Assembly: GCA_958435545.1 (NCBI GenBank)
Contig: CAUBGU010000072.1
Location: 1 to 6,940 of the forward strand
Source of the DNA: an uncultured Collinsella sp.
Lineage (GTDB): Bacteria > Actinomycetota > Coriobacteriia > Coriobacteriales > Coriobacteriaceae
Length of the DNA stretch: 6,940 nucleotides
Direction: 5' to 3'
This document shows, in pieces, positions 703 to 4,704 of this stretch. How positions within the stretch are numbered: position 1 is the first letter of the stretch; each line of letters opens with the position of its first letter. A model generated the notes under the pieces. It saw nothing but the letters and a program-made list of their open reading frames with translations. It made no database searches and had not been told where the DNA came from. The position numbers and the translations under genes were made by a program.

Positions 703-1902
703 ATGGCCGAGATCGTTCTCAAACATGTTCAGAAGGTGTATCCCAACACCGAGTCCAAAAAGAAGGGCTTCTTTGGCAAAAAGAAGAAGACCGAGGAGAA
801 GAAGCACAACCTCAAGGTTACCGAGGATGGCGTGCTCGCTGTTGAGGACTTTAACCTCACCGTTCACGACCAGGAGTTCGTCGTCCTCGTTGGCCCGTCT
901 GGCTGCGGTAAGTCCACGACGATGCGCATGGTTGCTGGCCTGGAGGACATCACCTCGGGTGACGTGTTCATCGACGGCAAGCGCGTCAACGACGTCGCTC
1001 CCAAGGACCGCGACATCGCCATGGTGTTCCAGAGCTACGCTCTGTACCCCAACATGACGGTGTACGAGAACATGGCGTTTACGCTTGAGCTCAAGAAGGT
1101 CCCCAAGGACGAAATCGACCGTAAGGTTCGCTCCGCTGCCGAGATCTTGGGTATCACCGAGTACCTCGACCGTAAGCCCAAGGCGCTTTCGGGCGGCCAG
1201 CGTCAGCGTGTCGCTATCGGCCGCGCCATCGTGCGTGATCCTAAGGTCTTCCTGATGGACGAGCCGCTGTCCAACCTGGACGCCAAGCTGCGTAACCAGA
1301 TGCGTGCCGAGCTCATCAAGCTGCGCCACGAGATCAAGGGTACGTTCATCTATGTTACCCACGACCAGACCGAGGCCATGACCCTCGGTGACCGTATCGT
1401 GGTCATGAAGGACGGCGTTGTCCAGCAGATCGCCACGCCGCAGGAGGTCTTCAGCCACCCCGCGAACATCTTCGTCGCCGGCTTCATCGGCGTGCCGCAG
1501 ATGAACTTCTTCGATGCCCAACTGGTGCGCTCGGGCGACGGCTTTACCGTCAAGACCGAGGATATGAACGTTGCTCTCGCCCCCGAGACCTGCTCTCAGC
1601 TTGCTCTCAACTGGGACGGCGGCGACGTGAAGGAGATTACGGCCGGCGTGCGCCCCGAGCAGATTCTGCTCGCCGACAAGGGCGAGGAGGGTGCGCTCCA
1701 GGGTACCGTCGAGGTGACCGAGCTCATGGGTTCGACCGAGCATGTCCACGTGACCGCTCCCGATGGCCAGTTCGTCCTGATCATTCCCGTTGTCGACCTT
1801 GAGGCCAAGGGTGCGCTCAAGGCGGGCGACTCCATCTGGTTCAAGTTCGAGAAGAACGCGACCCATCTCTTCGATAAGGTGTCTGGCAAGAACCTTATCT
1901 AG
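703..1902 (+). CDS. Sugar ABC transporter ATP-binding protein, MsmK/UgpC/MalK type
   Basis: Cytoplasmic ATPase that powers sugar import; a complete protein of 399 residues. The frame is open further upstream, but ATG 703 is chosen because AAAGG lies 7 nt before it and MAEIVLKHVQKVYPN is the family's usual N-terminus. Visible motifs are Walker A GPSGCGKST (64-72), Q-loop Q110 (VFQSYALYP), ABC signature LSGGQ (162-166), Walker B FLMDEP (183-188), D-loop (SNLDAK) and switch His220 (VTHDQTEAM). A C-terminal regulatory TOBE-like region spans about 240-399, including GVRPEQ. Its odd feature is a lysine-rich insert at about 16-44, between the first strand and AVEDFNL, where compact relatives have only a few residues. 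It follows the permease by 67 nt, presumably in the same operon, and a terminator follows it. ATPases of this type can serve several sugar transporters, so the partner is not certain. Exact gene name (msmK, ugpC or malK) is not resolvable from sequence alone. Confidence 0.96.
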   Translation: MAEIVLKHVQKVYPNTESKKKGFFGKKKKTEEKKHNLKVTEDGVLAVEDFNLTVHDQEFVVLVGPSGCGKSTTMRMVAGLEDITSGDVFIDGKRVNDVAPKDRDIAMVFQSYALYPNMTVYENMAFTLELKKVPKDEIDRKVRSAAEILGITEYLDRKPKALSGGQRQRVAIGRAIVRDPKVFLMDEPLSNLDAKLRNQMRAELIKLRHEIKGTFIYVTHDQTEAMTLGDRIVVMKDGVVQQIATPQEVFSHPANIFVAGFIGVPQMNFFDAQLVRSGDGFTVKTEDMNVALAPETCSQLALNWDGGDVKEITAGVRPEQILLADKGEEGALQGTVEVTELMGSTEHVHVTAPDGQFVLIIPVVDLEAKGALKAGDSIWFKFEKNATHLFDKVSGKNLI

Positions 1903-1972: not shown

Positions 1973-2014
1973 GACTCCCCTCCCGTCCACTGGGCGAGAG
2001 GGGAGCCTTTCTTT
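1973..2014 (+). terminator. Rho-independent terminator of the ABC transporter operon
   Basis: CTCCCCTC (1975-1982) pairs perfectly with GAGGGGAG (1998-2005) around a 15-nt loop, followed by the T-rich run CCTTTCTTT. It lies about 70 nt after the ATPase stop codon and before the repeat array, so most operon transcripts should end before the array. Confidence 0.82.
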
Positions 2015-2040: not shown

Positions 2041-2099
2041 TGTCTCAATCTGTAACAGGAGGAGGGCCAAATTGGGTCTAGATGTTACAGATTGAGACA
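2041..2099. repeat. Inverted-repeat unit 1 (perfect 17-bp stem)
   Basis: Left arm TGTCTCAATCTGTAACA (2041-2057) is the exact reverse complement of 2083-2099. The loop is 2058-2082. This is the only unit with a fully Watson-Crick stem over all 17 pairs, and its loop is the most divergent of the four. Confidence 0.92.
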
Positions 2100-2120
2100 G
2101 CGTTGAGCTGCCTGTCCTTT

Positions 2121-2179
2121 CATCTCGATCTGTAACACGAAGGACTGATTTCGGCGGCTACCTGTTACAGAACGAGATT
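2121..2179. repeat. Inverted-repeat unit 2 (compensated pairs)
   Basis: Arms 2122-2137 and 2163-2178 form 15 of 16 Watson-Crick pairs, with one A.A mismatch (2128/2172). Relative to unit 1, two pairs changed on both sides: G-C became A-T (2122/2178), and A-T became G-C (2127/2173). The outermost position (2121/2179) is unpaired. Confidence 0.9.
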
Positions 2180-2200
2180 GTTTTAGCCGGCTTATCCATT

Positions 2201-2259
2201 TGTCTCGATCTGTAACAGTAAGGGCGGATTTCGGACGTTAGGTGTTACAGATTGAGATA
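2201..2259. repeat. Inverted-repeat unit 3 (two wobble pairs)
   Basis: Arms 2201-2217 and 2243-2259 pair throughout if G.U is allowed on the + strand. Wobbles are G2202.T2258 and G2207.T2253. The loop is 2218-2242. Confidence 0.9.
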
Positions 2260-2281
2260 AACCCTAGGGAAAGGACCGGTT

Positions 2282-2340
2282 TGTCTTGATCTGTAACAGG
2301 TAGGACCGTTTTGGCCGAGTAGGTGTTACAGATTGAGACG
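2282..2340. repeat. Inverted-repeat unit 4 (three wobble pairs)
   Basis: Arms 2282-2298 and 2324-2340 pair throughout with G.U allowed on the + strand. Wobbles are T2282.G2340, T2287.G2335 and G2288.T2334. The loop is 2299-2323, and a short T-rich stretch (ATTTTG) follows the right arm. Confidence 0.9.
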
Positions 2341-2375: not shown

Positions 2376-2406
2376 AAAAAACGGAGCCGTGCTGCCACGA
2401 CTCCGT
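2376..2406 (-). terminator. Rho-independent terminator of glgP
   Basis: Read on the - strand, ACGGAGTCGTG pairs with CACGGCTCCGT as an 11-bp stem with one T.G wobble and a GCAG tetraloop, followed directly by a run of six T. It starts 30 nt after the glgP stop. On the + strand the wobble becomes a C.A mismatch and no long T-run follows, so it works best for glgP. Confidence 0.93.
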
Positions 2407-2436
2407 TTCTCAAGAGGATGGGTAAGGGAAACGAAA

Positions 2437-4704
2437 TTAGCTCAGGTGCCAAATCTCGTCGTTGTACTGGGAGATTGTGCGGTCGGACGAGAAGGTGCCG
2501 GCGTTGGCGATGTTGATTAGCGCCTTGCGCATCCAGGTGTCCTGGTCCTCGTAGTCTGCTAGCACGTGCTCCTTGGTCTGGATGTACTCCTCAATGTCGA
2601 GCAGGGCCATAAACCAGTCCTTGCCCTTGATGTCGTCGTGCAGGCGTTGCAGACGCTTAGCGTTGCCGGTCGCCATAAAGGCGGGGTTGGTGATAAAGTC
2701 CACCAGCAGTTTGATACCGGGCTTGCGGTAGAGTGCGCTGGCGTTATAGCTGCCGTCGGCGTAGAGCTGCTCGACCTGCTTGGAGGAAGCGCCAAAGGTG
2801 TAGATGTTCTCGTCACCCACGAGCTCGGCGATCTCGACATTGGCACCGTCGAGCGTGCACAGGGTCAAAGCGCCGTTGAGCATGAACTTCATGTTAGAGG
2901 TTCCGCTCGCCTCCTTGGAGGCCAGGCTGATCTGCTCGGAGATATCGGCGGCGGGAATCACACGCTCGGCAGCAGTGACGTTGTAGTTCTCGATCATGAC
3001 GACCTGCAGGTAGGGAGCCACGTCGGGGTCGTTGGCAATCCACTGGGAAAGCGTCAGGATCAGATGGATGATGTCCTGGGCGATAGTGTAGGCAGGCGCT
3101 GCCTTGCCGCCAAAGATGATGGTGACGGGGTGCTTAGGTCTGTTACCGTTCTTGATGTCGAGGTACTTCCAGATGATGTAGAGCGCGAGCATCTGCTGGC
3201 GCTTGTACTCGTGGATACGCTTGACCTGAACATCGATGATGGCGTTGGAGGGGATCGTCACACCCTGCTCGAGCGCCATGAACTGGCGCATGATGGTCTT
3301 TGCCTCGGCCTTGGTGGCGGCCAGGCGCTCAAGAATACTCTTATCGTCGGCGAAGTCGGCGAGCTTGCTCAAGTCGCCGGTGCTGCGCCAATCGGTACCG
3401 ATCACATCGTCGAGTAGGCTGGCGAGCGCGGGGTTGGCTCCCTGGATCCAGCGGCGGAAGGTGATGCCGTTGGTCTTGTTGGAGAACTTCTCGGGGTAGA
3501 TTTCGTAGAACGGATGAAGCTCGGTGTCCTCCAGGATTTTGGTGTGGAGTGCGGCGACGCCGTTGATGGAGAAGCCAAAGTGGATGTCCATGTGGGCCAT
3601 GTGGACGGTGTCGTATTCGTCGATGATGGCAACGCGCGGGTCGTCGTGCTCGGCCTTTGCGATCTCATCGAGCTTGACGATAATGTCGGCGATGGCAGGG
3701 GAGACCTTCTGCAGGCTGGCGAGCGGCCACTTCTCGAGCGCCTCGGCAAGAATCGTGTGGTTAGTGTAGGCGACCATGGAGCGTACGATGGTCACGGCCT
3801 CGTCAAACTCGATGCCATGCTCGGTGGTGAGCAAGCGAATGAGCTCGGGGATGACCATGGTGGGGTGCGTGTCGTTAATCTGGACCACGGCGTAGTCGGC
3901 CAGATCGTGCAGGTTGCTGCCGCGCTCGATGGCCTCGTCGATCAGGAGCTGGGCGGCGTTGCTCACCATGAAGTATTCCTGGTAGATGCGAAGCAGGCGG
4001 CCCTGCTCGTCGGAATCGTCAGGGTAGAGGAACAAAGTGAGGTTCTTGGCGATCTCGGTCTTGTCGAAGTCGATGGAGCTGCCGGGTACCAGACCGTCGT
4101 CGACGCTTGCCAGGTCGAACAGGCGCAGGCGGTTCTTGGCGGGCTGGCCGTAGCCAGGCACGTCGATGTTGACGAGCTTGGAGGTAACGGCAAAGTCGCC
4201 GAACTCAACAGTGTAGGAGCGGTCGTCATCGATCAGGATATCCTGCTCCCCGAGCCACTCGTCGGGAACGGCCTTCTGCTGATTGTCGACAAAGCGCTGG
4301 CGGAACAGGCCGTAGTGGTAGTTGAGGCCCACGCCGTCGCCGGTCAGGCCCAGCGTGGCGATGGAATCCAGGAAGCACGCGGCCAGGCGGCCCAGGCCGC
4401 CGTTGCCGAGCGACGGTTCGACCTCAAACTCCTCAATCTTATTGAGGTCGTGGCCCGCGGCGGTGAGCTGGTCCTTAACCTCGCTATAGATACCGAGGTC
4501 GATCATGTTGTTGATGAGCAGCTTGCCGATCAAGAATTCGGCGGAGATGTAATAAAGCTTTTTCTTGCCATTGTTGAGCGGGCAGGCGGCTGAGCGCTTC
4601 TGCACGAGCTTAACAAGCAGTTTGTAAATGCGACGGTCATCGAGCTGCTCGAGCGAGATGCCAAAAGACTGCTCGGCAAGTTCTGCGAGATCGATACGGG
4701 GCAT
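2437..4704 (-). CDS. glgP: Glycogen/maltodextrin (alpha-glucan) phosphorylase, GT35
   Basis: Cytoplasmic PLP-dependent enzyme that cleaves alpha-1,4-glucan ends with phosphate to give glucose-1-phosphate; 755 residues. The start is the ATG at 4704-4702, preceded by a clear AGGAGG (4714-4709); the frame is open further upstream but overlaps malQ antiparallel features and lacks family similarity. Family landmarks are SLGNGGLGRLAACFLDS (98-113), the GLNYHYGLF segment (126-134), QINDTHP (275-281), FSNKTNGITFRRWI (407-420), VKRIHEYKRQQ (494-504) and the cofactor loop EASGTSNMKFMLNG (598-611) with Lys606 as the expected Schiff-base lysine. The protein is shorter than the roughly 790-840 residues of enterobacterial and animal enzymes, and no long regulatory N-terminal extension is visible. 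It lies 128 nt downstream of malQ on the same strand, which supports a maltodextrin or glycogen breakdown role. Whether the natural substrate is glycogen or maltodextrin (malP) cannot be decided here. Confidence 0.96.
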   Translation of the reverse strand: MPRIDLAELAEQSFGISLEQLDDRRIYKLLVKLVQKRSAACPLNNGKKKLYYISAEFLIGKLLINNMIDLGIYSEVKDQLTAAGHDLNKIEEFEVEPSLGNGGLGRLAACFLDSIATLGLTGDGVGLNYHYGLFRQRFVDNQQKAVPDEWLGEQDILIDDDRSYTVEFGDFAVTSKLVNIDVPGYGQPAKNRLRLFDLASVDDGLVPGSSIDFDKTEIAKNLTLFLYPDDSDEQGRLLRIYQEYFMVSNAAQLLIDEAIERGSNLHDLADYAVVQINDTHPTMVIPELIRLLTTEHGIEFDEAVTIVRSMVAYTNHTILAEALEKWPLASLQKVSPAIADIIVKLDEIAKAEHDDPRVAIIDEYDTVHMAHMDIHFGFSINGVAALHTKILEDTELHPFYEIYPEKFSNKTNGITFRRWIQGANPALASLLDDVIGTDWRSTGDLSKLADFADDKSILERLAATKAEAKTIMRQFMALEQGVTIPSNAIIDVQVKRIHEYKRQQMLALYIIWKYLDIKNGNRPKHPVTIIFGGKAAPAYTIAQDIIHLILTLSQWIANDPDVAPYLQVVMIENYNVTAAERVIPAADISEQISLASKEASGTSNMKFMLNGALTLCTLDGANVEIAELVGDENIYTFGASSKQVEQLYADGSYNASALYRKPGIKLLVDFITNPAFMATGNAKRLQRLHDDIKGKDWFMALLDIEEYIQTKEHVLADYEDQDTWMRKALINIANAGTFSSDRTISQYNDEIWHLS

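Follow-up and report, generated by a model that had tools for sequence, protein, structure and literature searches.

The window analysed here, a stretch of 6,940 nucleotides from an uncultured Collinsella sp., carries a series of inverted repeats in the gap between a sugar transporter gene and a glycogen phosphorylase gene. The initial annotation suggested that the series could be an undescribed structured repeat or a multi-hairpin RNA of Coriobacteriia. The locus raises the question of what is being preserved in such units, i.e., a folded transcript, a mobile element or a DNA structure to which a protein may bind.

The array in the window

The window sequence confirmed that positions 2041-2340 hold four tandem inverted-repeat units of a 17-25-17 design (arm, loop, arm), which stand in register with successive spacings of 80, 80 and 81 nt (Table 1); arm length, the loop of 25 nt in all four units, the linkers of 21-22 nt and the period of 80-81 nt were measured as first described. 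The arms of unit 1 are complementary at 17 of 17 positions. On the + strand, the departures from complementarity are one A.A and one C.T in unit 2, two G.T in unit 3 and three G.T in unit 4. Across the family, according to its profile, the linkers are A/T beside the arms and GC-rich in the middle. The array is not a product of chance, as units of the 17-25-17 design are found again, with an equal loop and period, in one clade of Collinsella.

Known kinds of element did not account for the array. It was right to set aside a CRISPR array, since the arms are inverted, the copies share 71-80% identity with the reference copy and the five window proteins that were scanned included no cas family. 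The same holds for known riboswitches: in the Rfam search of the window, the array had no match, and the only hit, which scored 24 bits where the gathering score is 80, fell outside it. The array was not called by Tandem Repeats Finder. Its region folds 10 s.d. below shuffled sequences, as any good inverted repeat would do.

Table 1. Features of the array and its flanks in the window (R1, sequence profile of the unit)
Feature	Position	Strand	Details
MalK/MsmK-type sugar ABC transporter ATPase	703..1902	+	Pfam ABC_tran, TOBE_2, OB_MalK
Terminator-like hairpin with T-run, gap between ABC ATPase gene and array	1975..2014	+	seen in the sequence; 1996-2011 also called computationally
Unit 1	2041..2099		arm 2041-2057, loop 2058-2082, arm 2083-2099; R1 match 63.4 bits
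Linker between units 1 and 2	2100..2120		21 nt
Unit 2	2121..2179		arm 2121-2137, loop 2138-2162, arm 2163-2179; R1 match 55.2 bits
Linker between units 2 and 3	2180..2200		21 nt
Unit 3	2201..2259		arm 2201-2217, loop 2218-2242, arm 2243-2259; R1 match 59.8 bits (unit itself among the 83 rows used to build R1)
Linker between units 3 and 4	2260..2281		22 nt
Unit 4	2282..2340		arm 2282-2298, loop 2299-2323, arm 2324-2340; R1 match 60.9 bits
Terminator-like hairpin (A-run before, T-run after), gap between array and glgP	2382..2408		seen in the sequence, not called computationally
Glycogen/maltodextrin phosphorylase (glgP)	2437..4704	-	Pfam Phosphorylase

Of the two terminator-like hairpins that flank the array, the one on the transporter side is conserved in nearly all rows of the locus alignment (L218 differs) and the one on the glgP side in those rows that cover its site.

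A repeat family of one Collinsella clade

The pattern ATCTGTAACA, followed by 12-40 bases and TGTTACAGAT, was scanned over 84,980 species genomes and returned at least 120 stretches. Among the 80 matches listed, 73 were titled Collinsella; the other seven had loops of 14, 16, 16, 16, 23, 27 and 36 nt, never 25, and judged by these loops they look like chance matches. The strict loop length claimed for the window was borne out in the at least 120 loci, which were not de-duplicated: of 248 pairings, 237 had a loop of exactly 25 nt, as did 314 of 327 when one mismatch per core was allowed. In the same loci, again without de-duplication, 166 pairs of successive left cores were closer than 600 nt, and 160 of these had a spacing of 79, 80 or 81 nt.

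Related genomes hold further copies in which both the arms and the loop length are kept. Among 43 genomes of the genus, 22 had 18-48 core-perfect units, one had a single unit and 20 had none. The sequence-only profile R1, which was built from 83 units and run on the genomes of the genus only, gave 54-124 strand matches in each of the 22 repeat-rich genomes; this is about twice the number of units, the element being nearly palindromic, and with 122 candidates scored per genome the highest counts may be lower bounds. In three genomes, roughly 17-23 arrays per genome were counted, half-unit remnants included. A spread over the Coriobacteriia, by contrast, was not found. The order-wide search, which used the exact core only, so that repeats with other arms would escape it, detected the core in 23 of 297 sampled genomes, and these were identical to the 23 found in the genus set. 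In a phosphorylase tree of 30 rows, the nine repeat-rich genomes included grouped in a single, fully supported clade whose inner branches are short (one other row, G029, was misread). Among the genomes searched, the repeat family is therefore restricted to one clade of Collinsella. Outside this clade, G022, G031, G037 and G038 had 2-4 strand matches, i.e., one or two units each, the unit of G037 being close to the end of its contig (about 200 bases); these stray units may reflect either horizontal transfer or assembly contamination.

An origin from phages or plasmids was rejected, as the phage records had no match to the repeat and the sole plasmid-labelled record bears ribosomal protein genes. 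This record, NZ_OY725717.1, an 899,693-base 'plasmid 6' of C. aerofaciens that also carries repeat arrays, looks like a chromosome labelled as a plasmid. Among 60 viral-contig stretches with the core, only L124 (positions 904-2289 of an IMG/VR viral contig) had unit-profile matches above 20 bits. Its two units (58.8 and 50.5 bits) have an SGNH hydrolase-like host gene on one side and a phage tyrosine integrase-like gene directly after them (named by look), and a prophage has apparently inserted next to the array. In the titles and abstract beginnings of the open-access literature in PMC, no paper on an 80-bp Collinsella repeat was found among the matches listed. A survey of human microbiomes (PMC8040213) that reports 3161 structured RNA candidates, with 250 described as palindromic, may include it.

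The evolution of the array could be followed at the locus of the window, whose phosphorylase has orthologues of 96-97% identity in 20 of the 22 repeat-rich genomes. An array of 1 to 5 units was present at the equivalent site in all 20 of them. In the 21 rows that include the window, the spacing was 80 or 81 nt in 40 of 40 neighbour pairs and the right flank was exactly 138 nt long in 18 rows. The number of units varies by whole units, with the arms and the geometry retained; the alignment of L225 reads as a fusion through a loop, yet 25 nt remain. The mean diversity at the locus was 0.068-0.083 for the arms and 0.298-0.383 for the loops of the first and last units, compared with 0.069 for the right flank and 0.115 for the third codon positions of glgP, which signifies that the loops turn over faster than their surroundings, probably through the exchange and loss of units. 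Invertible loops were rejected: in 603 array pairs sharing both flanks, from which 29 pairs with identical loops were set aside, 0 inverted, 636 direct and 952 unmatched loops were obtained (at most four mismatches). Loops within five mismatches of each other made up 21 of 1616 unit pairs inside 17 assemblies (loci among the 80 matches listed), and 14 of the 21 lay within one locus. In L208 (20 kb of G007), repeated beta-glucosidase/PTS/LacI-like cassettes (names by look) are bordered by arrays whose loops are nearly identical, as if the arrays were joints of cassette duplication.

Arms as probable DNA half-sites and the question of an RNA

The claim that the arms are under constraint was upheld in 101 non-redundant units, in which 22 of 24 positions (arm positions 3-5 and 8-16 and their mirrors) are conserved at 95% or more. 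On average, arms differ from each other by 1.43 per 15 nt and loops by 14.6 of 25. Perfect 15-nt arms are nearly confined to the units in the 868 kb of array-bearing loci, where 480 of them were found, 471 inside called units and the remaining 9 within 200 nt of one. The loops do differ as much as the drift described for them would imply, but this is not simple drift because an oriented pattern is kept, which consists of a strand-specific AAA(A) centre, GC blocks beside it and inward TAG/CTA motifs next to the arms. A model with loop orientation gained 152 in likelihood compared with 22-36 in 10 column-shuffled controls. The orientation of neighbouring loops is uncoordinated (128 same and 94 opposite). 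Within the loop there is an A+T rhythm of 10 bp, which only 9 of 5000 permutations equalled in strength. Over the unit plus linker no such rhythm was found, as 2690 of 5000 permutations were equally strong, and a gyrase-like rhythm over the whole unit was therefore rejected.

If the arrays were multi-hairpin RNAs, whether regulatory or processed, the two arms of a unit would be expected to change together, and the covariation check did not bear this out. In 83 aligned units, the arm-pair covariation score was 0.104 compared with 0.110 in shuffled alignments, 444 of 500 shuffles being as high, and the left and right arms of a unit were no closer to each other than to random partners (1.38 vs 1.43 differences, sd 0.05). 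Most of the variable arm positions change independently of their pairing partners; position 7 with 53, for example, has 30 G-C, 26 A-T, 23 A-C and 21 G-T combinations in the 101 non-redundant units, and the matches between positions 2 and 58 fall short of expectation (45 vs 53.8 in the 101 units). One arm pair of the 17, position 8 with 52, shows a small excess of matches (92 vs 89.3 expected, z 3.7), which speaks for an RNA, as do the very stable fold of the + strand and the five wobble departures of the window, all of which are G.T on that strand. The tolerance of G.U pairs is, however, apparent in the window alone and was not borne out by the wider set, in which 51 units between co-directional genes had 55 G.T and 40 A.C departures on the transcribed strand, a slight excess that we do not count as a strand bias. 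Owing to the asymmetry of the loop, its positions 25-27 tend not to pair with 33-35. Moreover, divergent gene pairs flank some of the arrays (19 of 109 classified arrays and 4 of 16 loci after orthologues were collapsed), the array of the window sits between two terminator-like hairpins and no Rfam family matches it. The multi-hairpin RNA that was initially proposed is thus very improbable. Each arm behaves as a double-stranded DNA half-site that is independent of its partner.

Candidate functions and the comparison with BIMEs and REPINs

The family combines constraint on the arms and the geometry with dispersal and with no covariation of pairing. From this constraint we infer protein binding, DNA bending and a structural role. 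Rigid spacing and strand-independent conservation suggest a protein-docking platform rather than an RNA, and we estimate at about 0.6 the probability that the array is a double-stranded DNA element whose half-sites serve a putative sequence-specific DNA-binding protein with a likely chromosome-structural function. Each half-site would cover about 25 bp, reaching from the arm as far as the TAG motif on the inner side and the A/T positions on the outer side, and the half-sites would alternate in orientation. The 25-bp loop with its A-tract could fix the distance and the helical phase of the two halves of a unit and could bend between them, and the period of 80-81 bp would allow units to stack into a larger nucleoprotein complex. 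As there are a few dozen units in roughly 20 intergenic arrays per genome, the likeliest role would be chromosome-structural, such as local wrapping, looping or supercoil control, as in enterobacterial BIMEs. HU/IHF is the best-known loop-bending partner of BIMEs. Matches to this family (PF00216, E up to 0.001) were found in none of the 43 genomes of the genus and in 9 of 14 controls, although an actinobacterial control, Corynebacterium glutamicum, does not match either; small nucleoid proteins of a divergent or another kind are possible partners. Several observations, the missing HU/IHF match among them, speak against docking. Arms are not invariably paired (2 of 65 perfect arms in G008 belong to half-unit matches and stand alone, with the closest unit some 1.4 kb away), the A+T rhythm is confined to the loop, and gene context and position relative to dnaA lack the bias that might be expected of a supercoiling or macrodomain device. 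The conserved arms could instead be the ends of a mobile element.

The genomic context of the arrays was determined for 109 of 138 arrays, after the exclusion of 18 arrays that lay at the edge of a locus and of 11 that overlapped an ORF call. Intergenic placement thus applies to 109 of 120 placeable arrays, the 11 others overlapping an ORF of simple gene calling. Before orthologues were collapsed, 44 of the 109 classified arrays lay between convergent genes compared with 85 of 333 background gaps. This bias is not claimed, being gone after the collapse to 16 loci (5 convergent, 7 co-directional and 4 divergent, with 8 loci mixed in their calls). An origin or terminus domain is likewise not claimed: in G008, 12 of 20 arrays, half-unit remnants counted, were in the origin-proximal half (p=0.50, KS 0.05).

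The nearest known kind of element is the BIME, and the array may best be read as a BIME-like protein-docking or DNA-wrapping array. BIMEs are described as regularly spaced units of alternating orientation, to which, in E. coli, IHF binds between inverted units and gyrase when the units are tandem (PMC2817692). The Collinsella arrays resemble these protein-docking elements in being intergenic, dispersed, regular and alternating, with a variable number of tandem units. They differ from them in the arm, which is non-palindromic and without GTAG, in the loop, which is fixed at 25 nt and has an A-tract, in the lack of an HU/IHF match in Collinsella and, for three genomes, in the lack of a RAYT next to the arrays. 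The REP itself is defined as an imperfect palindrome tagged GTAG or CGTC (PMC2817692, PMC3733652). The super-families with these tags (PMC3733652) are likewise short extragenic repeats that form inverted dimers, but neither tag is found in the Collinsella consensus of 83 units; the main text of that study contains neither the word Collinsella nor the word Actinobacteria.

It is also conceivable, though rather unlikely, that the arrays are a REPIN-type non-autonomous mobile element, or its relic, which is copied by a RAYT (Y1 tyrosine transposase), in which case the arms would be the ends of the element and the arrays would have grown by repeated copying or excision. The outline fits: two conserved ends are inverted around a spacer, as the REP/REPIN definition asks, and like the Pseudomonas REPINs described in PMC3116915 the units have ends of about 16 bp, mostly paired, and a less conserved spacer of set length, while the regular alternation recalls BIMEs. 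Y1_Tnp was found in 37 of 43 genomes, i.e., in 22 of 22 repeat-rich genomes and 15 of 21 others, which gives mild support for a link; half-unit remnants are present, and a single origin on the stem of the clade is consistent with a burst. However, in REPINs the spacer length and the pairing capacity are reported to be critical, the spacers to pair and compensatory changes to be common (PMC3116915), whereas in the Collinsella arrays such changes are not in excess, with only pair 8/52 slightly above expectation. In addition, the arm consensus lacks a GTAG tag and does not form a palindrome by itself, the closest Y1_Tnp gene to any array in G007, G008 and G027 is about 36 kb away, and near-identical copies at separate loci are few, so that recent dispersal is not seen among the matches listed. 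A role of the arrays as strong BIME-2-like gyrase sites, which would absorb positive supercoils between genes, appears improbable. The tandem BIME-2 arrays of E. coli are reported to be gyrase sites, with a 130-bp gyrase motif that has a GC rhythm of 10.75 bp (PMC6379681), and the Collinsella arrays offer a loop rhythm of 10 bp and a mostly intergenic position. Unlike that motif, their rhythm does not span the unit and linker, an indirect-readout enzyme would not need a strict arm sequence and the enrichment between convergent genes is absent once orthologues are collapsed. It is likewise hard to regard the arrays as operators through which one transcription factor controls the adjoining genes. 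Their half-sites are inverted and intergenic, as operators would be, but the neighbouring genes look unrelated (sugar, transport and housekeeping genes, in part annotated and in part named by look), 5 of the 16 collapsed loci lie between convergent genes and thus have no promoter side, and several units are stacked at each site; we consider this reading highly unlikely.

Within the docking reading, a more specific possibility can be put forward tentatively, namely that the arrays are a lineage-specific chromosome organiser in which a dedicated putative protein binds the half-sites, which alternate at a distance of about 40 bp, and wraps the DNA with one 80-bp unit to each turn. If this were true, a chromosome would carry a few dozen staples, the number of units being tuned by recombination with the geometry held, and one clade would have evolved or recruited a protein of its own in a genus with no HU/IHF match. 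The REP and BIME families described in the studies cited come mainly from Proteobacteria and are linked with RAYT, IHF and gyrase, while the Collinsella family, from an actinobacterium common in the gut, has the layout with no RAYT next to the examined arrays and no HU/IHF match, and retains its arms, loop length and period although the loops turn over. The arrays could serve as a defined DNA bait for fishing out a new nucleoid protein. They may also be a natural test of selfish versus structural explanations.

Mobile-element-like genes were observed in three of the array-bearing stretches (L207:7684-9220, L210:9334-10790 and L264:34979-37930), with IS3 and IS21 being annotated in L264. REPs have been reported as insertion targets (PMC1525189), and, by analogy, the Collinsella arrays may be insertion targets for mobile elements. 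In L207 and L210, a gene with identical first 70 residues (a transposase by look) starts 171 and 184 bp, respectively, from the array.
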